From Occultella glacieicola (lineage in GTDB: Bacteria > Actinomycetota > Actinomycetes > Actinomycetales > Beutenbergiaceae): a stretch of 64,000 nt of DNA. Where the stretch lies: assembly GCF_004353825.1 (NCBI RefSeq), contig NZ_SMNA01000008.1, positions 124,001 through 188,000 of the forward strand, given 5' to 3'. The notes under the pieces were generated by a model. That model was given only the letters and a program-made list of their open reading frames with translations. It was not told the origin of the DNA and made no database searches. Shown piece after piece: positions 28,124-48,627 of the stretch. Both the position numbers and the translations under genes were made by a program. Each line of letters begins with the position of its first letter. Positions within the stretch are counted from its first letter, which is position 1.

Positions 28124-30079
28124 TCACGCAGCCGTGGCGTCCGGGCGAACTTGCCCGTCCTCCGTGCGAGGTCCGTCGGCGACGTTCTCCTCGGCTCGGG
28201 CCTGCTCGTTCTGTCGGTGGATGTCCCAGTTGCCCATGACGGTGCTGACGGCGTCCACGAGGTGCAGCGGGCCGCCGCCGATGGGGGTCAGAGGGTGGTT
28301 GGGATCGCGGAACTGGTCGGGGTCGGATGCTTCCGCGGAAGCGACGCCTGGACCTGATTCGTCGCGGATCGTCGGAGCTGCGCCGGATTCGGGGCTCGTC
28401 GGCCCTGATCCGGCGAGCTCCTTCGGCGTGGTCGTGGCCACGGGGGCTGCGACGGGCTCGGACGTGTGCGCGGCAACCGTAGAAGGGGCCACGGTGACTG
28501 GCGGCGTTGGTACCGAGGTGAGGATCCGGCCGTCGGGGGTGGTGAAGAAGACGGTCCCGTCTTCTCGCAGGGTGATGTCGTAGTTGCCTTCGTGGAGGAG
28601 TCGGTGGTGGGTGGCGCAGAGCAGGACCAGGTTGGTCAGGGTGGTCGGGCCGCCGTCGGCCCAGTGGTGGATGTGGTGGGCGTGGAGGTAGGCGCGGCGG
28701 TGGCAGCCGGGTGCGCGGCAGCCGTGGTCGCGGGACCAGAGTGCGCGTCTGAGGGCGGCGTTGGTGCTGCGTACGCGTGGGCTGACCTCGAGGGTGCGGC
28801 CGGGGCGGGCGTTGGGCACGACGGTGAATCCGGAGGTGTGGTTGGCGTGTAGGTGGGTGACGACGCCGGTGTCGCAGGTCAGGCGGCGCGCGGTCTCGGG
28901 GTGCAGGGCCGGGCCCAGCTCCAGGTGTGGCCCGATCAACTTCGCCGTGTCCGGCGGATCCTCCTCAGCCGTGGCCGGGTCGGCCCCCGGCGCTTCCGCG
29001 GAAGCGCCGGGGCCGGCGATGCCTGTGATTGGGGTGACGGTGGTGAAGCCACCGCGTTGCGCGCCGTCCTCGACTGCCTCGTGGGTGGCGTCATCGGAGC
29101 GCGCCGCTGGATCGCTCCTGAGAGTTCGGGTGTCCTCGCGCCCGAGCCCGTCGGCGGTCTCGGTGGGCTCGAGGACCTCGGGTTCAATGGGGCCGGCCGT
29201 GTCCGTGGGTGCGGGCCGCGCGTTGGCGAGGTCGTCGAGGGTGACGTGCAGGACGGTTTCGCCGCGTCGCTGGCCCCGGGGGGTGTGCGCACCGGTGGAG
29301 ACCGCCGCCTGATCACCGGTGGTGGCGGCGTGGCCGGGGTGGGCCACGACGGACTGTTCACAGATCAGGATCAGCGCATCGATGAGGGCGTGCCCGTGCA
29401 CGACACTCTCCCGCAGCCAGGGCGGTGGTTCGGGATCCGTGGAGTGCCCGGCGTCGGTGTCCTTGAGGTAGTCACCGACCCGGTTCAACTCCTCGATCAG
29501 GACCGCGGCGTCCTCCGGCGAGCACCGCCCGGAGAAGGAATAGGAACCATCGAGTTCCTCCCGGAAACGCAGGTGCCGCTCACCGTGGAGCTGGTTCACC
29601 TCATCCAGCGACCGCGCGGTGCGCACCCCGGCCACGAACCGCTCCAACTGGTTCGCGGTCGCCGACGCGGCCACGGCCAGCAGTTCCGGTTCGGTCTCGG
29701 CCGTGGCGACTCTGGTGATCGCCCGGACCTTCGAGAACGACAAGTGCCCGGCCGCGAACACTGCCGTGGTACCCGGTAGGACGGTCAGAGCATGCGCGAT
29801 CCGCACATGTTCACGGGCGGTGGTCGCCGACATCCCGCACCGCCAGGACAGCCAGTTCACGCAGGAAGCGAACCCGCCCGTGTTCCAACCCTGACGATCA
29901 TCGAACTCGGCCAATAACAGCAGGAACCGACACGTCGACGCCGCGATCTTGACCGCCAACCCGGACAGCTCCGCCTCGATCTCCTCCAACGGCCGCACCT
30001 CGCCAGGATCGAGTGGGGCTGCACCGGGATCGTCGGACAGCCGACTCGCGGGTTGGGTCTGGAAACTGGCTGTGGTCAT
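28124..30079 (-). CDS. DUF222 (13E12 family) HNH endonuclease
   Basis: 651 aa. The N-terminal half is the DUF222 helical domain (LVKIAASTCRFLLLLAEF-like, QGWNTGGFASCVNWLSWRCG, HVRIAHALTVLPGTTAVF), as in the REP13E12 family of mycobacteria. The C-terminal HNH nuclease has CRAPGCHRRAYLHAHHIHHW and LVLLCATHHRLLHEG, with two Cys pairs and the catalytic histidines. Two low-complexity inserts contain ASAEA, encoded by the palindrome GCTTCCGCGGAAGC that recurs outside the gene. The C-terminal 130 residues look disordered. Such genes are multi-copy and often repeat-associated; role unknown. Confidence 0.88.
   Translation of the reverse strand: MTTASFQTQPASRLSDDPGAAPLDPGEVRPLEEIEAELSGLAVKIAASTCRFLLLLAEFDDRQGWNTGGFASCVNWLSWRCGMSATTAREHVRIAHALTVLPGTTAVFAAGHLSFSKVRAITRVATAETEPELLAVAASATANQLERFVAGVRTARSLDEVNQLHGERHLRFREELDGSYSFSGRCSPEDAAVLIEELNRVGDYLKDTDAGHSTDPEPPPWLRESVVHGHALIDALILICEQSVVAHPGHAATTGDQAAVSTGAHTPRGQRRGETVLHVTLDDLANARPAPTDTAGPIEPEVLEPTETADGLGREDTRTLRSDPAARSDDATHEAVEDGAQRGGFTTVTPITGIAGPGASAEAPGADPATAEEDPPDTAKLIGPHLELGPALHPETARRLTCDTGVVTHLHANHTSGFTVVPNARPGRTLEVSPRVRSTNAALRRALWSRDHGCRAPGCHRRAYLHAHHIHHWADGGPTTLTNLVLLCATHHRLLHEGNYDITLREDGTVFFTTPDGRILTSVPTPPVTVAPSTVAAHTSEPVAAPVATTTPKELAGSGPTSPESGAAPTIRDESGPGVASAEASDPDQFRDPNHPLTPIGGGPLHLVDAVSTVMGNWDIHRQNEQARAEENVADGPRTEDGQVRPDATAA
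28329..28342. repeat. dispersed palindrome, copy inside the HNH gene
   Basis: Perfect 14-bp palindrome GCTTCCGCGGAAGC, within the HNH coding sequence where it encodes part of ASAEA. One of at least five perfect or near-perfect copies between 28.3 and 31.6 kb. Confidence 0.8.
28985..29012. repeat. dispersed palindrome, 28-bp extended copy inside the HNH gene
   Basis: The GCTTCCGCGGAAGC core (28992-29005) extends into a perfect 28-bp palindrome with G/C-rich outer arms. Also inside the HNH coding sequence, encoding ASAEA with flanking Pro-Gly. Confidence 0.8.
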
Positions 30080-30178
30080 GGCAACCTCCTAGTTGAAACA
30101 CCTGTTCTAATCGTAGGCTCGGGCACCGACAACGTGATCGGGGCTTGTGGATGGCTGGTGCGGCTGCGTCCGCGGGGC

Positions 30179-30430
30179 GCTTCCGCTGAGGCGGTCTGCG
30201 GTCGCGAGGGCGGGCGCCGGCGGGGACGAGACGCTTCCGCTGAAGCAGTCTCGGGTCACGGGGACGGCGCGCCGGCGGGGAGGGGGCGCTTCCGTTGAAG
30301 CGGTCTCGGGTCACGGGCCGGGGGTGTCGGCGGGGACGGGATGCTTGCGAGAAGCGGTCAGTGGTCGCGGGGGACGGAACGCTTCCGCTGGGGTGTGTGC
30401 GGACGGGACGGGACGCTTCCGCGGAAGCGT
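30179..30430. repeat. degenerate tandem repeat with GCTTCCGCTGAAGC-type cores
   Basis: Six units begin at 30179, 30233, 30288, 30343, 30381 and 30415; the first four are spaced 54-55 bp, the last two 38 and 34 bp. Each starts with a GCTTCCGC-like core, in full units followed by GGTCTCGGGTCACGGG-like sequence and a G-rich tract. The last core (30413-30430) is a perfect 18-bp palindrome. Confidence 0.8.
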
Positions 30431-30527
30431 GTCGTGGATTCGGATCCCGGTCTGTCGCAGCGCACATCCGGGGCGCGCCGACGAGGCGGCGGCGAATGGT
30501 CCGCACGTGCGGTGGCGCAGTGACGGG

Positions 30528-30545
30528 GCGCTTCCGGGGAAGCGG
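30528..30545. repeat. dispersed palindrome, imperfect copy
   Basis: GCGCTTCCGGGGAAGCGG, a near-palindromic copy of the same family, 115 bp after the tandem block. Confidence 0.7.
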
Positions 30546-30634
30546 TGGGCGATCCGTGGACGGCCGTGCCCGGGCTGCTGCCTGCGCGGTGGTCGATCGC
30601 CGCGCCAGCCCGGTGAGTGGGCGTATGGCGCGAT

Positions 30635-30763
30635 GTGCTCGGTCCCGACGATGGCTGCGTCGCGTGGCGCGCTCGGTCCGACTATTGCTGCATCGCGTGC
30701 GGACGATGGATGCGTCGCGTGGTGCGCTCGGACCCGACGATGGCTGCGTCGCGGTGCGCTCGG
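30635..30763. repeat. 34-bp imperfect tandem repeats
   Basis: Units carrying GCGCTCGGTCC and GACGATGGCTGCGTCGCG start near 30635, 30669, 30724 and 30756 (the last partial); a shortened copy lies at about 30697-30722. Unit length is about 32-34 bp. It directly adjoins the palindromic repeat block but has a different sequence. Confidence 0.65.
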
Positions 30764-30855
30764 TAGCCACCGCCAGCGTCGCTGGTCCCGGAAAAAGCGC
30801 GCCGAGGCTCTCCACGAGAATCAGGCGAGCGAGCGGACTCCGGGAGGTGCGCCGG

Positions 30856-31581
30856 TCACGTCGCGTTCCACAGGTCGCGGTAGTACTCCAGGCGGGCGCG
30901 GTCTGGAGCGAGACCGTATGCCTCGATGAGCGCGTCCTCCCAGCCCGGCCCGTAGTTCCATTCCGTGCTCATGGAGGCGACCGCGATGTCGGCCCACCGG
31001 TCCGCGACGCCCATCGCGCCGAGGTCGACATGGCCCACCCAGGACCCGCGGTCGTCGAGGAGCGTGTTGGGGCAGCACGCGTCGCCGTGGCACACGACGG
31101 GCCGGTCGACGGCCGGTGGCTCCCGTAGGGGGTCCGGCACGCGGATGCCGCGGGCGGCCGCGTTCGCCAGGCGGGCGGGCACGCCCCAGTCGAACGGGCA
31201 GCCGTCGACCGGCAACGCCTCGTGCAGAGCCCGGAGTCCGGCGCCGACGGCGCGCACGGCACTCGCCGGATCCGCGATCCAGCGGGCCGCGACCGCCGAC
31301 TCCCCCTCGAGCGCGGCCGTCATCAGCCACTCATGCGTCGCGTCGCCACCCTCAGCGATCACGCGTGGCACCGCGGTGTACGAAGCGGCCCAGACCAGCC
31401 GGGCGGCCTCGGCCTCCATGGACGTCTCGGCGTTCTTGGGACCGTACTTGAGGTAGCGCCCGTCGTCCGTGCGGAAGGTCACCCCGCCGAGCCCGTTGCG
31501 CCACACGGGAGTCAGCCGTGCGTCGCCTGCGAGGCGTCGAACGGGCCGTGGTTCGGCAACGGGTTCGCTGGGGATCGACAC
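30856..31581 (-). CDS. aminoglycoside 3'-phosphotransferase-like kinase
   Basis: 241 aa from GTG 31581, preceded by GGATGGAG. Protein-kinase-like fold: LKYGPKNAETSMEAEAARL (nucleotide-binding Lys and the Glu of helix C), VVCHGDACCPNTLLDDRG with the Brenner motif HGDxxxxN, and HVDLGAMGVADRWADIA with the DxG metal site. This matches the APH(3') family. Whether it confers resistance or phosphorylates a native sugar cannot be told. A palindrome of the dispersed family lies just upstream. Confidence 0.82.
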   Translation of the reverse strand: MSIPSEPVAEPRPVRRLAGDARLTPVWRNGLGGVTFRTDDGRYLKYGPKNAETSMEAEAARLVWAASYTAVPRVIAEGGDATHEWLMTAALEGESAVAARWIADPASAVRAVGAGLRALHEALPVDGCPFDWGVPARLANAAARGIRVPDPLREPPAVDRPVVCHGDACCPNTLLDDRGSWVGHVDLGAMGVADRWADIAVASMSTEWNYGPGWEDALIEAYGLAPDRARLEYYRDLWNAT

Positions 31582-31594
31582 GGCTCCATCCTGC

Positions 31595-31610
31595 CGCTTC
31601 CGCGGAAGCG
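31595..31610. repeat. dispersed palindrome, copy upstream of the phosphotransferase gene
   Basis: Perfect 16-bp CGCTTCCGCGGAAGCG in the 40-bp gap between the DUF952 stop and the phosphotransferase start. Confidence 0.8.
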
Positions 31611-32130: not shown

Positions 32131-32343
32131 CGCCGGGCCGCCGGCTTCGAGCGGGTTCGCCGGGCCGCCGGCTTCGAGCGGGTTCGCCGGGTTGCCGGCT
32201 TCGAGCGGGTTCGCCGGGCCGCCGGCTTCGAGCGGGTTCGCCGGGCCGCCGGCTTCGAGCGGGTTCGCCGGACCGCCGGCTTCGAGCGGGTCCGCCGGGC
32301 CGCCGGCTTCGAGCGGGTCCGCCGGGCCGCCGGCTTCGAGCGG
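32131..32343. repeat. 27-bp minisatellite, 8 copies of the core
   Basis: The core GGCTTCGAGCGG begins at 32143, 32170, 32197, 32224, 32251, 32278, 32305 and 32332, an exact 27-bp period with a few substitutions. Because 27 is divisible by 3 all frames give 9-residue repeats, for example GPPASSGFA on the plus strand and ARSRRPGEP on the minus strand; these are artefacts of the repeat. Confidence 0.92.
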
Positions 32344-38701: not shown

Positions 38702-39577
38702 ATGATGCCCGATCCGGACCTGACCAACCCCCGCGCCGAGCGGGTGAAGGCGGTCCGGGGCCTCGCCGGGCGTTCGGCGCGCTCCCGGCACGGTCAGTTC
38801 CTCGCCGAGGGACCACAGACCGTGCGGGAGGCCGTCGCGTTCGCGGCCGAGCACGTCCGGGACGTCTACCTGACGCCGCAGGCCGCCGAGCGCTACCCCG
38901 AGATCGTCGACGCGGCCCACATCGCCGGCCTGTATCTGCACCTGGGCAGCCCCGAGGTGCTCGACGCGATGAGCCCGGACGCCCAAGGGGTCCTCGCGGT
39001 CCTGAACACCTGGGACACCCCGCTCGCGTCGGTGCTGGCCGCCGACCCGGCGCCGCGCCTGATCGCACTGCTGTCCCAGGTGCGCGACCCGGGCAACGCG
39101 GGCACCGTCATCCGGGCCGCGGACGCCGCTGGGGCCGATGCGGTGATCCTGACCTCCGCGAGCGTGGACGCCCACAACCCGAAGGTGGTGCGCGCCACCG
39201 CCGGCTCCCTGTTCCACGTCCCGGTCGTCACCGGGCTCACCCTGGACGATGCGGTCACCGCTGCGCGCGCCGCCGGGATGCAGATCCTCGCCGCCGACGG
39301 CGCCGGCGCCGTCGACCTGGACGAGCTCGCCGAGTCCCCGCGCTCCGGGGCCGACGGCGCCGGCGGCGCCGACCTCGCCGCGCCGACCGTCTGGGTGTTC
39401 GGCAACGAAGCCTGGGGTCTGGGTGCACCCGAACGCGCGCTCGCCGACGCCGTGGTCCGGATCCCGATCCGAGGCCGCGCCGAGTCGCTGAACCTGGCCA
39501 TGGCCGCCACCCTGTGCCTGTACGCCTCCGGCCGGGCACCCAGGCACCGCCGCCCGTGGGAACCGACCGAGTGGTGA
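38702..39577 (+). CDS. SpoU/TrmH-family RNA 2'-O-methyltransferase
   Basis: 291 aa (ATG 38702; ATG 38705 also possible). SpoU substrate-binding domain at the N-terminus (RHGQFLAEGPQTVREAVAF), then the knotted SPOUT domain: LLSQVRDPGNAGTVIRAADA, WVFGNEAWGL and VVRIPIRGRAESLNLAMAAT. Probably methylates 23S rRNA, as in the TsnR/RlmB group; target nucleotide not determined. The GTGA overlap couples it to the next gene. Confidence 0.92.
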   Translation: MMPDPDLTNPRAERVKAVRGLAGRSARSRHGQFLAEGPQTVREAVAFAAEHVRDVYLTPQAAERYPEIVDAAHIAGLYLHLGSPEVLDAMSPDAQGVLAVLNTWDTPLASVLAADPAPRLIALLSQVRDPGNAGTVIRAADAAGADAVILTSASVDAHNPKVVRATAGSLFHVPVVTGLTLDDAVTAARAAGMQILAADGAGAVDLDELAESPRSGADGAGGADLAAPTVWVFGNEAWGLGAPERALADAVVRIPIRGRAESLNLAMAATLCLYASGRAPRHRRPWEPTEW

Positions 39578-40230
39578 GCGGACTGCCCGCGGCACCGGAC
39601 GCCGTCGTGCCGTTGGTGCGGCGGGTCCGCGGCCTCGCGGCCACCCGCGACCGGGTCCTCCTCGGCGTGGTCGGCTCGCCCGGCGCGGGCAAGTCCACCC
39701 TGACCGATGCCCTCGGTGCGGCGCTCGAGTCGGACGGGCTCCGTTGCGCCGTCGTCGGCATGGACGGGTTCCACCTCGCGCAGGCCGAGCTCGAGCGCCT
39801 CGGTCGGGCCGACCGCAAGGGTGCGATCGACACGTTCGACGGCGACGGGTACCTCGCGCTGCTGCGGCGGCTGCGTGCGCAGCGCCCGGGTGACGACGTG
39901 ATCTACGCGCCCCGCTATCTGCGTGGCGCGATGGAGCAGCCGATCGGCAGCCACACGCCGGTCGCCGGCGACGTGCGGGTGCTGCTCACCGAGGGCAACT
40001 ACCTCCTCGCCGACGTCCCGCCCTGGCACCGGGTCCGTGAGGTCCTGGACGAGATCTGGTTCCTGCGCACCGACCCGCTCGTCCGGCGGGAACGGCTGCT
40101 CGCCCGGCATCTGGCGAACGGCAAGACCCTGGAGCGCGCGCTCGCGTTCACCGACGGCTCCGACGCCCGCAACGCGAAGCTCATCGAGGCGACCGCCGGG
40201 GCGGCGGATCTGGTCGTCGACTGGGACTGA
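39574..40230 (+). CDS. nucleoside/pantothenate-type kinase-like P-loop protein
   Basis: 218 aa from GTG 39574. Walker A GSPGAGKSTLTDALG, then VVGMDGFHLAQAELERLGRA with the DGFH signature of the uridine-kinase/PanK-like group, IDTFDGDGYLALLRRLRAQ, YLRGAMEQPIGS and VLLTEGNYLL. Family members phosphorylate sugars or nucleosides; substrate unknown. Its last five codons and stop are part of a 24-bp sequence repeated exactly 3560 bp downstream. Confidence 0.85.
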   Translation: MSGLPAAPDAVVPLVRRVRGLAATRDRVLLGVVGSPGAGKSTLTDALGAALESDGLRCAVVGMDGFHLAQAELERLGRADRKGAIDTFDGDGYLALLRRLRAQRPGDDVIYAPRYLRGAMEQPIGSHTPVAGDVRVLLTEGNYLLADVPPWHRVREVLDEIWFLRTDPLVRRERLLARHLANGKTLERALAFTDGSDARNAKLIEATAGAADLVVDWD

Positions 40231-40237
40231 CCGGCGC
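40214..40237. repeat. 24-bp direct repeat, left copy
   Basis: Identical to 43774-43797. It covers the last five codons and stop of the kinase gene plus 7 nt. The repeats bracket the histidine kinase/ABC/response-regulator genes. Flanking bases differ immediately outside. Confidence 0.93.
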
Positions 40238-40245
40238 TCGGAGCG

Positions 40246-41169
40246 CTACGGTCCGGCGGGTCGACGGGGAACGGCGACCCAGAGCACGAGCCGATCCTCG
40301 GGGCTCTCCTTGCGATGCTCGAGCGTTGCCGAGGCGCAGCCGCCCAGCTGCCGGGCCAGCACGCTGACGATCGACAACCCCAGCCCGGTGGTGCGGTCGG
40401 AGCGCGAGGAGTCGGCTGTGAAGAAGCGCTCGAACAGTCGGTCCGGGTCGACCGCGGCACCCGGCGGGAACGGGTTCGCACACCGGATCTCGACGTGGTC
40501 GCCGGTCGTCACGACTGCGACCTCCAGATGGCCCTGCCCGTGCTGGGCGGCGTTTCGGACGAGGTTCTGCACGATCCGGGTCAACTTCTCGCGGTCCGTG
40601 GTGACCAGGACCGGGCCGGGCGGGTCGAAGCGGACGTCGAGGCCGGCGTCCTCCAGTGATTGGGTCGCCGCGAGCAGGACGTCGGCGACCAGGATCGCGA
40701 CGTCGACCTCCTCGTGCACGATCCGCGGCTCGGCCTCGAGTAGGTAGCTGTACTCGTAGAGCCGTTGGACCAACGTCTCCAGTTCGGTCGCGTGCCGCTG
40801 CGCGACGGCGAGCTTGGCGCGCTGGTCGGCGTCCAGGTCGGAACGGCCGAGCAGTTGTTGGTAGCCGCGCACGGCGGTCAGCGGGGTGCGTAGGTCGTGG
40901 CTGATGTCGGTGATCAGGGCACGGAACCGCAGTTCGTCCCGGTGGGACCGGACCTCGGCGTCCCGGGTCGCCCGGAGAGCCTCGTCGGTTCGCACCGCGA
41001 GGGCCTCCAGCGCAGGGTTGATCAGGTCGAGGGTGATCGTGGTGCGTTCGTCGCCACGCAGGCGCGAGGTGAGCTGCCGGGTGAGGGTGCGGACCTGGCG
41101 CACGATCAGCGCCAGGTAGACCAGCACCGCGACGAGGGCAGTGGCGAGCAGAACGATCGCGGTGACCAC
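40246..41169 (-). CDS. sensor histidine kinase without extracellular sensor domain
   Basis: 307 aa from GTG 41169 with GGGAGGGCACC upstream. A single hydrophobic N-terminal segment (TAIVLLATALVAVLVYLALI), a linker, the HisKA dimerisation domain (ITDISHDLRTPLTAVRGYQQ, phosphorylated His), and HATPase (NLVRNAAQHGQG, TTGLGLSIVSVLA). No periplasmic loop is present, as in kinases that sense through a partner transporter (BceS-like). It is the last gene of a regulator/ATPase/permease/kinase set. Confidence 0.93.
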   Translation of the reverse strand: MVTAIVLLATALVAVLVYLALIVRQVRTLTRQLTSRLRGDERTTITLDLINPALEALAVRTDEALRATRDAEVRSHRDELRFRALITDISHDLRTPLTAVRGYQQLLGRSDLDADQRAKLAVAQRHATELETLVQRLYEYSYLLEAEPRIVHEEVDVAILVADVLLAATQSLEDAGLDVRFDPPGPVLVTTDREKLTRIVQNLVRNAAQHGQGHLEVAVVTTGDHVEIRCANPFPPGAAVDPDRLFERFFTADSSRSDRTTGLGLSIVSVLARQLGGCASATLEHRKESPEDRLVLWVAVPRRPAGP

Positions 41170-41233
41170 GGTGCCCTCCCGGTGTGGCTGTCCCCGGGCG
41201 CGGACGGCGCCCCCTGCGGGCCACTGTAGGGCG

Positions 41234-42016
41234 CTACTTGACGTCCGCCCGGCGGAAGAGCAGCCACGCCAGCGCGCCCATCGCGGCGATGAACACCACC
41301 GAGACGGCGGTAGTGGTCAGCAGGTCACCGGTGCTGCTGTCCGGGAGCGGCATCCGGTCGGCGGAGAACGGGGTGAGCCCGGCGATCGCCTCGCCGGGAG
41401 CGGTGTCCGAGACGGTGCTGACGAGCAGGTCCGCGACGAACGACCAGACGAAGCCCGTCGCCATCACCACGATGGGCCGCTTCAGCACGAAGGCGAGCGG
41501 GATGCACACAGCGAGCTTCGCGGCGTAGAGCAGCCCGGTCACCACACTCACCGCGACCAGGTGGACGACGCCGCCCGCGTCGAGCTCCACGGAGTCGGCC
41601 GTGAGCAACGCGAACGTCGTCGGGAGCGCCGGCTCGAAGGACGCGCCCGTTGCCCGCCCCACGAGCGCGGCCAACCCGTAGGGCAGGCTCACCAGGATCA
41701 CCGCGAGCGAGGCGGTCATGGCCTTCGAGGCGACGACCGGTCCGCGGCCCGCCGCGAGCAGTGCGGCGTGGACGGACTTCGTCTCGAAGGGGCGGGCGAT
41801 GGCGAGACCGATCAGCAGCGGGCCGAGCAGACTGATGATCAGGATGTCGCTGACGCCCTGCACACCGCTCGCGGACGCGGGATCGAGACCGCCGCTCGCC
41901 AACCGGTACTGCAGGAAGGTGTAGAGCGCAGCGGCTGCGCACGCCACCAGGACACTGACGGTCATCGCGGTCGAGTGGCGTTGGACATAGAGGTCGGCCT
42001 GCAGTTGGTTGATCAT
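41234..42016 (-). CDS. ABC-2-type permease (BcrB/LanE-like)
   Basis: 260 aa, about six hydrophobic helices (TVSVLVACAAAALYTFL, IISLLGPLLIGLAIARP, LAVILVSLPYGLAALVG, LVAVSVVTGLLYAAKL, and two more) with cytoplasmic loop MINQLQADLYVQ at the start. This arrangement matches permeases of bacitracin/lantibiotic immunity transporters. Its ATG overlaps the ATPase stop, so the pair makes a transporter. Confidence 0.87.
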   Translation of the reverse strand: MINQLQADLYVQRHSTAMTVSVLVACAAAALYTFLQYRLASGGLDPASASGVQGVSDILIISLLGPLLIGLAIARPFETKSVHAALLAAGRGPVVASKAMTASLAVILVSLPYGLAALVGRATGASFEPALPTTFALLTADSVELDAGGVVHLVAVSVVTGLLYAAKLAVCIPLAFVLKRPIVVMATGFVWSFVADLLVSTVSDTAPGEAIAGLTPFSADRMPLPDSSTGDLLTTTAVSVVFIAAMGALAWLLFRRADVK

Positions 42017-42933
42017 GATCTCCCCGCTCCGGTGACGGTGAGGAAGAAGCTCTCGAGCGACTCTCCCTCAGGGCTGAAGGCGGTGGGCCACACGTCCTGG
42101 CGGACCAGGGTGCGCAGCACGGACTCGGCGTCGTCGAGGTGCGAGGTGAGCCGGACCGAGCGGTCCGGCATCACGGTGAAGTCCGACGTCCCCAGGCCCT
42201 GCTCAAGAACGGTGGTCAGGCGCTCGGTATCGGGTGCCTCGATGCGTAAGAACCTCTGCGTCTGCGCATCGAGCTCGGCGAGGGTAAGGGTCCGGCGCAC
42301 GGCGCCGCGGTCCACGATGATGTAGTCCGTTGCGGTCTGGTACAGCTCCGGCAGGTTGTGGCTGGAGAGCAGGACCGTGATGCCGCGCTCGATCGCGAGG
42401 TCCCGGATGAGGCGCCGCACCTCGACCACTCCGGCGGGATCCAGCCCGTTGACCGGCTCGTCGAGGACCAGCAGTTCCGGCGCCGAGATCAGGGCCAGCG
42501 CGATTCCCAGGCGCTGGCGCATGCCGAGCGAGAAGTTCGAGACCCGCTTGCGGCCGGTGTCGGCCAGCCCGACGAGCTCCAACAGCTCGGTCTCGACGTT
42601 GGGGTCGGGCACGCCGCGGATCAGACGGTGCACGTGCATGTTCTGCCGCGCCGTCATCGCACCGTAGGGCGTCGGGGTCTCGATCAGGGTCCCGATCCGG
42701 GCCAGGTCCTGCTGCCGTGGACGCTCCGCGTCGGAGCCGAACAGACTGATCGTGCCGGCGGTCGGGATCGCCAGTCCCGAGATCATCCGCATCAGGGTGG
42801 TCTTGCCGGCCCCGTTCGACCCGATCAGGCCGTACACGCGACCACGCTCCATCCGGATGCTGACGTCGTCGACCGCACGCTGCTCGCCGTACCGTTTGGT
42901 GAGCCCGCGGGTGACGAGTACCTCCTCGGTCAT
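42013..42933 (-). CDS. ABC transporter ATP-binding protein (BcrA-like)
   Basis: 306 aa from ATG 42933 with GGAGGAGATCGGC upstream. Walker A GSNGAGKTTLMRM, Q-loop region IGTLIETPTPYGAMTARQN, signature NFSLGMRQRLGIALAL, Walker B LLVLDEPVNGLDP and switch His in SSHNLPELY. The C-terminal domain of about 80 aa is as in BcrA/NatA drug and peptide exporters. Probably protects against membrane-active peptides; substrate unproven. Confidence 0.94.
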   Translation of the reverse strand: MTEEVLVTRGLTKRYGEQRAVDDVSIRMERGRVYGLIGSNGAGKTTLMRMISGLAIPTAGTISLFGSDAERPRQQDLARIGTLIETPTPYGAMTARQNMHVHRLIRGVPDPNVETELLELVGLADTGRKRVSNFSLGMRQRLGIALALISAPELLVLDEPVNGLDPAGVVEVRRLIRDLAIERGITVLLSSHNLPELYQTATDYIIVDRGAVRRTLTLAELDAQTQRFLRIEAPDTERLTTVLEQGLGTSDFTVMPDRSVRLTSHLDDAESVLRTLVRQDVWPTAFSPEGESLESFFLTVTGAGRS

Positions 42934-43020
42934 GCCGATCTCCTCCGCCGGTTCCCGGGCCGATCGCGGCCCGGATCTTCTGGACGTCACCGACCGTACG
43001 GACCGGAGGTTCAGCCGACG

Positions 43021-43082
43021 TCAAGTGGCGACCGAGAGGGTGTGGAAAGGGTCAAGAAGCGTCAGGATCGCGTCAGGACCCG
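43021..43082 (-). promoter_or_regulatory. possible OmpR-type response-regulator boxes
   Basis: TCAAG or TCAGG words start at 43021, 43052, 43062 and 43073; the last three are spaced 10-11 bp, the helical repeat used by OmpR-family regulators. They lie upstream of the ATPase gene and overlap the end of the regulator gene. Weak evidence. Confidence 0.25.
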
Positions 43083-43751
43083 CCGCAACCGGTACCCGAG
43101 GCCCCAGACGGTCTCGATCGGATCCGAGTCCGGGGCTGCGTCGCGAAGTTTGGCGCGCAGGTTGGACAGGTGCGTCTTGACCGCGGCGTCGTCGCCGACG
43201 AACGGCTCCTCCCAGACGGCCTCGTAGATCGACGGACGTGACCGGACCGTGTCCGGGGACTCCAGCAACAGGCGCAGGATCCGCAGCTCGGTCGCGGTCA
43301 GCGCCACCGGCCGGCCCGCGATCGTGGCGCGTGCCGAGGCCGGGTCGAGTGTGAGGTCCCCGTGGGCCAGGGACCGGTCATCGGTGGCCGGGTGCGCGCG
43401 GCGCAGCAGGACCTCGATCCGGGTCGCCACCTCGGTGAGGTCGAAGGGCTTGGTCACGTAGTCATCGGCGCCCAGCCGCAGCAGGTCCACCTTGGTGACC
43501 ACGGCATCCCTCGCGCTGAGCACGAGCACCGGGACGGAGCTGTGCCTGCGGATCTCGGTCAACAGCACCGATCCGTCGACGTAGGGGAGCATCAGGTCCA
43601 GCACGACGAGGTCGACGGGGGCGCCGGCCAGCGCGGCGCGTGCGGCGAGACCGTCACGGACCCCGCGCACCTCGTGGCCCTCGGCGGTCAGTGTCTCGAC
43701 CAGCAGGGCGTTCACGTCGGCGTTGTCCTCTACCACCAGGATCTGCGCCAT
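43062..43751 (-). CDS. OmpR-family response regulator
   Basis: 229 aa. Receiver domain: VVEDNADVNALLVETL with acidic pocket, VDLVVLDLMLPYVDG with phospho-acceptor Asp52, VLSARDAV and the KPFDLTEVA lysine. The winged-helix domain ends SNLRAKLRDAAPDSDPIETV, WGLGYRLRR. First gene of the minus-strand module and partner of the kinase at its other end. The ATG is preceded by a -10 hexamer, not by a ribosome-binding site. Confidence 0.95.
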   Translation of the reverse strand: MAQILVVEDNADVNALLVETLTAEGHEVRGVRDGLAARAALAGAPVDLVVLDLMLPYVDGSVLLTEIRRHSSVPVLVLSARDAVVTKVDLLRLGADDYVTKPFDLTEVATRIEVLLRRAHPATDDRSLAHGDLTLDPASARATIAGRPVALTATELRILRLLLESPDTVRSRPSIYEAVWEEPFVGDDAAVKTHLSNLRAKLRDAAPDSDPIETVWGLGYRLRRVLTRS

Positions 43752-43758
43752 GAGGGCA

Positions 43759-43764
43759 ACGCTA
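43759..43764 (-). promoter_or_regulatory. -10 hexamer TAGCGT for the response regulator
   Basis: TAGCGT on the minus strand, 7 nt before ATG 43751. The right 24-bp repeat would occupy the -35 side of this promoter. Confidence 0.5.
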
Positions 43765-43773
43765 GCGGTCCGA

Positions 43774-43797
43774 TCGTCGACTGGGACTGACCGGCGC
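43774..43797. repeat. 24-bp direct repeat, right copy
   Basis: Exact copy of 40214-40237. It ends one base before the stop codon of the methyltransferase gene on the minus strand. Together with the left copy it frames the sensor/transporter genes. Confidence 0.93.
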
Positions 43798-43798
43798 C

Positions 43799-45103
43799 TC
43801 AGGCCTGGCCGGTCCGGCCGAACCGGGTCAGGGCGTCGAGGATCGGTGCCGGCGCGAGCAGGAACATCGGGGTGAGTTCCTCCCACCCGCGTTCCTTGAC
43901 CCGCCGGGCGAACGCCTCGTGTGCGGCGTCCACCGGGTTCGATGTGTCCAGACCCGACCCGTCCGTGCCCAGGAGGGCGAGGTGGTACATCCACACCGAC
44001 CCGTCCGCCTCGGTGTGCTTGAACGTTGCCTCGAACGCCGCTCGCTCGGCGGGGAGCGTGGCTTGGCACTCCGCGTAGCGGTCGGTGAGCATCTGCATCC
44101 AGATGCCGAGCTCGGCCTCCTTGCCCGGCAGGATCCGGGCCCGGGACAGCTCCAGTCGGAGGCCGTCGGGCACGGTGGCGGGCATGGGGTGCGGGGGCGC
44201 GTCCGGGGGATCCGGGCGGAACGGGGTGTTCGCCTGCCGATCCACGGCGTCGGTGCCCGCCTGATCGCCGGCGGGGCCGGGCCCGGCGACGGGTGCGCGC
44301 CCGAGCACCATCAGGTGGGCCGAGGCGCCGATGAGCGTGGGCTCACGCTCGATGCGGCGGATCGCCTCGAGCACCCGCCGCTGCGCCGCACCGCCGTCGA
44401 GCAGGTCCGCCATGGTGGGCGCGGAGCCGGACGGTCCCTCGATGGCGATCGGGCCGTCGACGTCGAGACCCGCGGCCGCGACCTCGGCGGTCAGTTCCTC
44501 GGGGCGGTGGAAGTACGCCGTCGTGAACCACCCGCGGACGTTGGCGGGGTTGAGGTGTCGTCCGGTCGCCACGTCCGCGGCCACGATCTCGGCGAACTCC
44601 TCGCTCTCCAGATGCGAGGCTCCGATGGCGTCCAGGGTCGAGGCGAAGCGGCTGATCCCGACGGCAACCACCACCCCGCCCGGCCGCAGCACCCGGCGTG
44701 CTTCACGTAGGGCGAGCGCCCGGTCGTCCGGCTCGGTCAGGTGGTACAACGGGCCCAGCATCAGCACGACATCCACACTCGCGTCCGCGACGGGCAGGTC
44801 TCGCGCATCGCCCAGCGTCGCCGAGCGCAGCGGTGTGGCCGACGAGGCACTCGCCGCGCTCGCCTCCTCGACGTGCCGTGGCACCGGGTCCAGCAGGTCC
44901 ACGGTGTACCCGCGCTCGGCCAGCCAGAGGGCGTAGGCACCCGGGCCGCCGCCGACGTCGAGCACCACGGCCGGTGCCGGCGGCAGGAGCCGGCCGAGCA
45001 ACTCCTGCGTGCGGACCCGTTCGAGCAGACCTGGGCCCTCGCTGAGCCGGCCCGCCTCGCGGCCCTGGTCGTAGTAGTCGCGGATCTCGTCCTCGATCGG
45101 CAT
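43799..45103 (-). CDS. class I SAM methyltransferase fused to a DUF6176-like domain
   Basis: 434 aa from ATG 45103. The N-terminal methyltransferase (1-270) has VVLDVGGGPGAYALWLAERG (motif I), VADASVDVVLMLGPLYHLTE and RVLRPGGVVVAVGISRFAS. After a Pro/Asp-rich linker (about 280-320) comes a second domain: LRLELSRARILPGKEAELGI, YHLALLGTDGSGLDTSNP and AHEAFARRVKERGWEELTPM, resembling DUF6176. Substrate unknown. It starts 2 nt after the next upstream gene, so they are co-translated. Confidence 0.8.
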   Translation of the reverse strand: MPIEDEIRDYYDQGREAGRLSEGPGLLERVRTQELLGRLLPPAPAVVLDVGGGPGAYALWLAERGYTVDLLDPVPRHVEEASAASASSATPLRSATLGDARDLPVADASVDVVLMLGPLYHLTEPDDRALALREARRVLRPGGVVVAVGISRFASTLDAIGASHLESEEFAEIVAADVATGRHLNPANVRGWFTTAYFHRPEELTAEVAAAGLDVDGPIAIEGPSGSAPTMADLLDGGAAQRRVLEAIRRIEREPTLIGASAHLMVLGRAPVAGPGPAGDQAGTDAVDRQANTPFRPDPPDAPPHPMPATVPDGLRLELSRARILPGKEAELGIWMQMLTDRYAECQATLPAERAAFEATFKHTEADGSVWMYHLALLGTDGSGLDTSNPVDAAHEAFARRVKERGWEELTPMFLLAPAPILDALTRFGRTGQA

Positions 45104-47090: not shown

Positions 47091-47422
47091 GACCGGCACC
47101 CTACGCGGCTCCGGGCTTCGCGCTGTGCTGAACAACTCAGTCCACTTGGTCGAGGCGCGTTGCTGTTGTCAGCGTCGCCCGACTCCTCGAACCACAGATC
47201 AGTTGCGACGGCATGGCAACTCCGTATCGATGATCAGGCCAGCACAGCCATCAGATCGAACGGGCCGGCCCGACCATCGCGTTCACCGTCTCCGCGCCAT
47301 CGCCGACCCGGACGAGACAGCAACGAACGACGACTCACTCTCCTGTTTCTGCCCCATCGCAGTCATGTCCAAGTGTCGCTCTTGCCCGAAGACACGGTCC
47401 CGAGGTCCGGAAATGGGAGAAT
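47091..47422. other. intergenic region, lower GC, no gene
   Basis: 332 bp between divergent genes. Apart from the -10 hexamer of the nucleotidyltransferase gene nothing was identified; base composition is visibly less GC-rich than the neighbours. Confidence 0.5.
47098..47103 (-). promoter_or_regulatory. -10 hexamer TAGGGT for the nucleotidyltransferase gene
   Basis: TAGGGT on the minus strand, 7 nt before ATG 47090. Confidence 0.5.
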
Positions 47423-47719
47423 ATGACGATGGTGACACCTGAGGAAGCGCGGCAGTTGCTCGTCGAGTACTTCGCGAAGAATCCGCCGGCGGTATCGGGT
47501 GACCTGTACGTCGCGCCTGAATGGTTCGAAGACGAGGACGACTTCCTCACCGTGTGGGGATCTCGGCAGTTCTTCCTCGAAGGCAAGGCGGAGTACGGCA
47601 GCTGGAACAACGAGGTCCTGTTCATGGACAAGCGCACCGGGGAGGTCCGCCGCGATATGCACAACGCGAACTTCCGCAAGATCCGGGCGATGACCCCGAT
47701 CGATGTGGGTGAGGGATGA
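47423..47719 (+). CDS. small acidic protein, possible orphan immunity protein
   Basis: 98 aa from ATG 47423 (ATG 47429 alternative) with GGGAGA upstream. Acidic and aromatic: PEWFEDEDDFLTVWGSRQFF, then NNEVLFMDKRTGEVRRDMHN. The ending pattern (a fixed strand, DK-TGEV, a short tail) is like YrhB/Imm35-type immunity proteins of polymorphic toxins, but this is a resemblance only. No toxin gene is adjacent. The surrounding DNA has weaker coding quality. Confidence 0.55.
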   Translation: MTMVTPEEARQLLVEYFAKNPPAVSGDLYVAPEWFEDEDDFLTVWGSRQFFLEGKAEYGSWNNEVLFMDKRTGEVRRDMHNANFRKIRAMTPIDVGEG

Positions 47720-48040
47720 CGGTGCGGCTCACGGCAGTCCAGCTCCGATCGCCCCGGACACGATCGGGCAGTTCGCCGACCGGTTCCGGCGCGCGCGGCC
47801 GAGGACCCGGCGCTTGCTGGGCCTGTGTGGGAGTGGGAGCCGCGCTCGGCCGCGGCCGAGCGTGACGGGGTTCCCGCCTTCGTGGCCAGTCGTGAGGGTC
47901 GAGTTGGCTGGCGACCGTCAGCGGCCGCCGGGACGCGCCCCGACGCTGACGTCGTCGAGGTAGGGGCCCTTGAACCGCATCGCGGGTGCCGGCTGCTCGC
48001 ACGGCTCGTGTGGGATGCCGCGCTCCCGTTCAGAACTCGG
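47703..48040 (+). pseudogene. possible frameshifted gene remnant
   Basis: From 47703 one frame reads ...DTIGQFADRFRRARPRTRRL to about 47822; the next frame continues as WEWEPRSAAAERDGVPAFVA, then GWRPSAAAG and RLLARLVWDAALPFRTRVTD. Joined by a single shift near 47822 the two halves read like one protein of about 110 aa. Neither half is recognised and the second frame runs on into the promoter of the next gene. Low confidence; it could be non-coding. Confidence 0.3.
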
Positions 48041-48114
48041 GTGACTGATCCGCCGCGCCGCGGGTCGCTAGGCTCGATGGGGCGCGGCACTGGACCGTGC
48101 GAGAGGAGACCGCA

Positions 48115-48471
48115 ATGGCTCGGATTCCCCCCGCGGTGAGCGTCTTCGTCGACCGTGCGGCGGCACTCGACGGCGCCGCCTACCCCGCGATCGAAGACGC
48201 CCACCTCGACGCCGATGAGGTGGCAGCGCTGCACGAGAGGCGCGACCCGAAGTTGTCGGCGTCCGAGTCGTCGTCCCTCGACGCGTACGTCCGCGAGCGA
48301 CTGCGCGCCCGCAGTGCTGACCTGCCGCAGTCCGGCATCGGCACCATCAGTGGTGCCATCGGCGCGACGAACCTGGCCGCGCGGGTGATCTGGAAGCGCG
48401 ACACCGTGGCGCCGGAGGTCTTCGAGATCGTCGTCGCGCCGTTCCGGGACGCCGGAGTCGAGGTGCCCTGA
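48115..48471 (+). CDS. hypothetical protein
   Basis: 118 aa from ATG 48115, GAGAGGAGACCGCA upstream; a TAGGCT hexamer lies at 48069-48074. Mostly helical, acidic first half (AIEDAHLDADEVAALHERRD) and a C-terminal half GTISGAIGATNLAARVIWKR plus VFEIVVAPFRDAGVEVP. No domain recognised. The RBS and codon use support a real gene. Confidence 0.65.
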   Translation: MARIPPAVSVFVDRAAALDGAAYPAIEDAHLDADEVAALHERRDPKLSASESSSLDAYVRERLRARSADLPQSGIGTISGAIGATNLAARVIWKRDTVAPEVFEIVVAPFRDAGVEVP

Positions 48472-48627
48472 CGGAATTGGTGTTCTCCCCATGCGGTCGA
48501 TCCCGAGGTCCGCTTGTGCTGGGGGCACCGGCCGCGGCGGGAGGACCCCTCCCAGCCCGCGGGCAGATCGACGGCCCTACGTGAACGAACGCATAGCCCG
48601 GCCTTGTGCTCGGTACCAAGGCAGACC

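Follow-up and report, generated by a model that had tools for sequence, protein, structure and literature searches.

A predicted ABC efflux module probably inserted with a 24-bp target duplication between convergent genes of Occultella glacieicola

Results

A 24-bp direct repeat encloses a four-gene module

We analysed a 64,000-nucleotide stretch of the Occultella glacieicola genome (contig NZ_SMNA01000008.1, positions 124,001–188,000; hereafter the window), in which four genes for an ATP-binding cassette (ABC) transporter and a two-component system lie between two copies of the 24-mer TCGTCGACTGGGACTGACCGGCGC. The copies, at 40214–40237 and 43774–43797, are letter-identical, and the bases outside them differ (left G/A, right T/C). 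The left copy comprises the last codons of a kinase gene (VDWD), its stop codon and 7 bp, and still forms the end of that gene; the right copy ends 1 base before the TCA stop codon of a methyltransferase gene. Once the module and one 24-mer are excised, the convergent stop codons stand 8 bp apart. These observations reproduce what a first-pass annotation, made by a model from the letters alone, had described: perfect repeats with unlike outer bases at both coordinate pairs, a left copy formed by the kinase gene end and stop, a right copy abutting the methyltransferase stop, and convergent genes about 8 bp apart once the module is removed.

The 24-mer occurs exactly twice in the whole 5.34-Mb genome, and the genome-wide search proposed in the first-pass annotation yielded no third copy even with up to three mismatches; the widespread occurrence that it had named as counting against an insertion was not seen. 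Order-3 Markov randomisations of the window produced exact direct repeats no longer than 17–21 nt; in the window itself, only a 27-nt tandem array near 32.1 kb contains exact direct repeats as long as the 24-mer or longer. The repeat exceeds chance expectation and is unique in the genome.

The gene on the left (39574–40230, plus strand) belongs to the nucleoside/nucleotide kinase family and is PRK09270-like (NF006743, 250.9 bits against a cut-off of 227). Its 3′ end is the duplicated target, and its orthologues are 85% identical at the amino acid level in three Occultella genomes. The earlier label "kinase gene" holds, with the small precision that the product is a small-molecule (nucleotide) kinase and not a sensor kinase. 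The gene on the right (43799–45103, minus strand) encodes a methyltransferase with a C-terminal DUF6176 domain.

The module encodes a predicted transporter with its own two-component system

Exactly four genes, all on the minus strand, lie between the repeats: an OmpR/PhoB-type response regulator (RR; 43062–43751; Response_reg and Trans_reg_C), an ABC ATPase (42013–42933), an ABC-2-like permease (41234–42016) and a histidine kinase (HK; 40246–41169). Gene calls and domain matches bear out the gene content proposed at first pass, including the lack of an integrase: all four genes were identified, none is a recombinase, and no mobility gene is present inside the module or close to it. The HK (307 aa; HisKA and HATPase_c) has one N-terminal transmembrane (TM) helix and no extracytoplasmic domain; with no second TM helix or loop, it agrees with the earlier description of a kinase lacking an extracellular sensor. 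A single N-terminal hydrophobic segment (residues 1–30) is found in 7/7 module copies.

The best family for the ATPase is TIGR03740, the lantibiotic-protection ATPases, with a score of 226 bits that lies under the curated cut-off of 309.75. It carries a glutamate at the Q-loop position (GTLIETP), where other ABC ATPases have glutamine; an E-loop in place of the Q-loop is known from lantibiotic immunity ATPases. The permease (260 aa) matched no family in Pfam or NCBIfam. Its structural model is of low confidence (pLDDT 57) and has an ABC-2-like helix order, with a six-helix topology and a short helix between TM2 and TM3; the top Foldseek matches, PmtCD (phenol-soluble modulin export; E 0.06) and NosDFY (E 0.1), serve as a hint only. 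We dropped a reading as a defence system because the PADLOC matches lie in shared ATPase motifs.

Upstream of the ATPase gene, the RR–ATPase intergenic region (42934–43061, minus strand) holds operator-like half-sites at 20–22 and 10–11 bp and a −10-like element (GTCCGTACGGT). In most module copies, half-sites resembling CCTGACCTT are retained at 21 and 11 bp and precede CCGTAGCGT, as expected where an OmpR-type activator binds over a −10 box. The observed half-site score was reached by 0/200 shuffles in the five Brachybacterium copies and by 1% of shuffles in the window copy; in the O. gossypii copy the fit was not significant (8.5%), though the stretch CTGACCTTCGCTGAACCTCC is visible. Sequence inspection also revealed a putative −10 box, TAGCGT (43759–43764, minus strand), 7 bp before the RR ATG, presumably as in leaderless actinobacterial genes, which makes it a possible leaderless RR promoter brought in by the module. 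A sigma-70 promoter and terminator consensus scan gave no matches, and Rfam and tRNA scans of the window returned nothing.

We expect the module to act as a self-regulated detoxification unit, and the operator-like repeats fit such a role in peptide detoxification. The RR would activate the ATPase–permease–HK unit through the half-sites, and the transporter would export or remove an antimicrobial peptide or a similar membrane-active compound. The transporter, not the sensor-less HK, would perceive the compound and report its presence to the HK. The "peptide-sensing" function assigned at first pass is a putative one: the ATPase is lantibiotic-protection-like, at a score below the cut-off, but HK and permease are devoid of the sensing domains that mark the two known types of peptide detoxification.

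The kinase–methyltransferase junction lacks the module in relatives

We next compared the junction with three other Occultella genomes (G001, G002 and G003, the last being O. gossypii) and a genome of a neighbouring genus (G004). The module is absent from it in all four. The kinase and methyltransferase homology blocks lie 5 bp apart in G002 and 84 bp apart in G003, and in G004 a methyltransferase that keeps DUF6176 lies about 125 bp past the kinase. G001 has a full methyltransferase, split from the kinase by 2.7 kb of unrelated cargo encoding a beta-lactamase-fold hydrolase and a MarR-like regulator, with no copy of the kinase end on its far side; the same junction therefore took other DNA in a sister species. 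No trace of a second 24-mer copy was found at the inspected junctions of G001–G004, so that, among the compared genomes, the module and the second copy are confined to the lineage of the window. The comparison, which the first-pass annotation had advised, accordingly bore out its expectation of module-free sites (G002, G003 and G004) and did not yield the exact one-repeat site; the contrary outcome that it had named, relatives all carrying the module here without the repeats, was not encountered.

The methyltransferase orthologues of G002 and G003 lack DUF6176, and the domain has been lost at nearly the same point in both (G002:C60 and G003:C8; L076 and L077), which makes the junction prone to deletion as well as to insertion.

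Related modules occur at another locus and in Brachybacterium

Among 23 near relatives, the permease was found only in the source genome and in O. gossypii. A contig-level search located the module in five Brachybacterium species (54–60% permease identity) and O. gossypii, together with one very distant Lentilactobacillus match, and across 396 genomes of the order strong permease matches were restricted to Occultella and a genus, g21, that is probably Brachybacterium, the rest being marginal. The permease had no matches in plasmid and phage collections. In the Brachybacterium massiliense copy, a gene for a 183-aa probable secreted protein (L095:9152–9703, minus strand) sits between the permease and HK genes; the protein has no Pfam match and is a possible substrate or bacteriocin-like partner.

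The O. gossypii module occupies a different locus, between a SulP-like transporter gene and kdpA, upstream of kdpA. In G002 just 57 bp separate the corresponding homology blocks, and no module interrupts the kdpA block of G001 either. No long direct repeat was found at the edges of the O. gossypii insertion. Between its sulP-like gene and the module RR gene (L079:3090–3600) there is about 0.5 kb of extra sequence that is absent in G002.

A tree built from seven sequences, with all four proteins concatenated, groups the two Occultella modules as sisters (support 1.0). Their amino acid identities are 76% for the RR, 80% for the ATPase and 63% each for the permease and HK; at the nucleotide level the two modules are 72% identical, against 80–89% for the shared flanks and 82–89% for the flanking genes in this pair of genomes. 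The module has a G+C content of 0.68–0.72 (about 0.70), some 5 points lower than its flanks (about 0.74–0.75). The divergence and the lower G+C content favour two independent acquisitions of related modules over recent movement of one old copy; an old paralogue is a less likely alternative.

Other indels in the region differ from the module

To place the 24-bp duplication in context, we compared 220 kb of the contig with the matching stretches of G001, G002 and G003 and surveyed the indels of 450 bp or more. At about 30 other indels, the exact edge-to-edge matches were at the random level (random edge pairs: mean 8 bp, maximum 13 bp) with two exceptions, both in G001: an 18-bp palindrome and a 13-bp match, the latter equal to the random maximum. 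Duplications of 24 bp are therefore not the rule for indels here, and that of the module is particular to it.

Within the window, a 1.5-kb segment at 47121–48619 is absent from G001 and G002, with a 1.5-kb insert at the matching place in G003, and its edges carry no repeats. Separately, 28328–31610 holds eight copies (three exact) of the perfect palindrome CGCTTCCGCGGAAGCG within 3.3 kb, against an expectation of 0.1 copies in the whole window; in G001, three exact copies occur in the compared 260 kb, two of which flank an insertion of about 0.8 kb. The tandem array occupies 32131–32340 and has a 27-bp unit containing GCCGGCTTCGAGCGGGTTCGCCGGG.

Discussion

Probable insertion and its proposed route

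There is good support for the insertion of a discrete foreign module with a duplicated target: the closest relatives are module-free here, O. gossypii carries the module at another site that is likewise empty in its relatives, G+C content and divergence depart from the flanks, and the second 24-mer copy is limited to this lineage. We consider it probable that a foreign RR–ATPase–permease–HK efflux module was inserted in this Occultella lineage only, duplicating 24 bp of its target. The compact module would have entered between the kinase end and the methyltransferase end, and the right 24-mer copy would be a relic of the junction as it was before insertion. Because the two genes converge on the site with their 3′ ends, the insertion would have been harmless. 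The first-pass proposal of an insertion with a duplicated target stands as regards the insertion; the comparison did not decide among transposition, site-specific recombination and end joining.

The single likeliest route, at a confidence somewhat short of even, is end joining by Ku and LigD at a staggered break. A linear foreign fragment would be captured at a double-strand break in the kinase 3′ end, fill-in of the overhangs would create the 24-bp duplication, and Ku/LigD would join the ends. The genome has a LigD_N domain and two Ku genes. The same product would arise, without mobility genes, from replication template switching or microhomology-mediated break-induced copying in which the fork returned 24 bp behind its exit point; by eye, the left edge of the module (GGTCCGGCGGGTCGAC) loosely resembles the right junction (GGTCCGATCGTCGAC). 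Against this stand the G+C-rich sequence in which the resemblance lies and the lack of a donor junction. We regard this route as unlikely, while noting that end joining and template switching cannot be separated from the sequence alone.

Several observations weigh against the insertion as we describe it. The empty junction that it predicts, with one 24-mer, 8 bp and a full-length methyltransferase, was found in no relative compared: the methyltransferases of G002 and G003 are shortened, and G004 belongs to another genus and has a 125-bp gap. An overhang of 24 nt would be long for the end-joining route, which is itself a proposal, and peptide transport is suggested by weak family scores. Furthermore, the two inner module ends match each other imperfectly in inverted order at 12/15 positions, a level seen in about 1 in 10,000 random pairs and picked after sight, which would suit transposition.

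Alternative explanations

This inverted match bears on the idea of a transposase-less mobile cassette, moved by a transposase from elsewhere, with imperfect terminal inverted repeats and the 24-mer as its target-site duplication. The two arms, TCGGAGCGCTACGGT (40238–40252) and TCGGACCGCTAGCGT (43759–43773), lie flush inside the repeats, and 12/15 matches arise in about 1.3e-4 of random pairs; however, the chance rises to 0.2% once small offsets are allowed. The match is weak and probably coincidental: both arms have ordinary explanations, the left one coinciding in part with the HK stop codon and the right one with the likely RR −10 box, and a genome search with the pattern as written returned the right arm only, with no further copies. 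Module edges inspected in O. gossypii and Brachybacterium lack such ends as well. Mobile insertion cassettes without a transposase are known (PMC3913671), and the insertion sequences (ISs) IS1549/IS1634 produce long variable duplications of 8–514 bp, but 24 bp falls outside the usual lengths of the IS4 group, 4–13 bp (PMC2266710). Of the groups covered there, only IS1549/IS1634 are reported to make longer duplications; within that scope, no known transposition enzyme explains the present insertion. On balance a mobile cassette appears rather improbable. More doubtful still is its extension to a small family of transposase-free peptide-detoxification cassettes moving between Brachybacterium and Occultella, mobilised in trans by a candidate enzyme that would duplicate 24 bp of target at the 3′ ends of genes in convergent pairs.

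Many integrase elements target the 3′ end of a gene and leave the gene end intact. The intact kinase end here shows that general likeness, and G001 carries different cargo at the same site, so that the module could be a remnant of site-specific integration, with the 24-mer as attachment core and the integrase gene since lost. This, too, seems quite improbable: in 13 genomes, the contig with the kinase locus has no phage-type integrase match (PF00589) up to 100 kb from it, serine recombinases not having been searched for; a 20-bp pattern built on the 24-mer was absent from 2.9 million viral contigs; the G001 cargo lacks a repeat of the kinase end; and the module is missing from the plasmid and phage collections. 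An ancestral module, deleted in the relatives by recombination between the repeats, would accord with the general tendency of direct repeats to favour deletion and with the commonness of module loss. It would demand that the other Occultella genomes and G004 lost the module independently, in the face of the divergence, the G+C mismatch with the flanks and junctions in G001–G004 without trace of a second 24-mer, and we judge it highly improbable.

Comparison with known systems

Insertion with a long target duplication has been described for restriction-modification genes of Helicobacter pylori (Nobusato et al. 2000, cited in PMC3031569 and PMC1643837). The likeness lies in a cassette without mobility genes, flanked by a target repeat that is single-copy in relatives and longer than usual IS duplications. 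The present locus likewise has a beyond-chance flanking repeat that is single or absent in relatives, an insert without transposase or integrase and empty orthologous sites in G002, G003 and G004, the exact one-copy junction beside a full-length methyltransferase not being among them. It differs from the H. pylori cases in its two-component/ABC cargo in place of a restriction system, its actinobacterial host, its short repeat and its being one case. Different cargo at one junction across species, without mobility genes, also recalls the integrase-less hotspots of gene gain that are common in bacteria (Oliveira et al. 2017, PMC5635113). Among the papers listed for Occultella, none on genome biology stood out.

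As for the cargo, the module resembles CprABC/LanFEG systems in its ABC-2-type permease of about 260 aa and adjacent RR and HK, and its ATPase is nearest to TIGR03740, though under the cut-off and with glutamate for glutamine in the loop. Unlike them, it has one permease gene instead of two different six-helix permeases, and its HK lacks the extracellular loop of about 115 residues. With BceAB-RS it shares a sensor-less kinase beside an ABC transporter; however, its permease has 260 residues, about six helices and no large extracellular domain, whereas Bce permeases have ten TM helices and an extracellular domain of 200–250 aa, and its HK has one helix, whereas in Bce kinases a loop of about 25 aa joins two TM helices. 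By its predicted layout, one permease and a sensor-less one-helix HK, the module is not of the Bce or the Cpr type as these are defined in PMC5786555. Corynebacteria, too, have an arrangement that belongs to neither type, in which sensing domains are missing from kinase and permease, but with ten-helix permeases (PMC8003753).

Collectively, the locus offers a clear case, with absent-site comparison, of a whole regulated operon that would have entered a chromosome without a mobility gene and left a measurable scar. If the end-joining route is true, Ku/LigD repair, which is common in actinobacteria, would be tied to horizontal gene gain. Set beside the systems above, it is one good instance of a pattern already known, insertion with target duplication, in a new host and with slightly unusual cargo.

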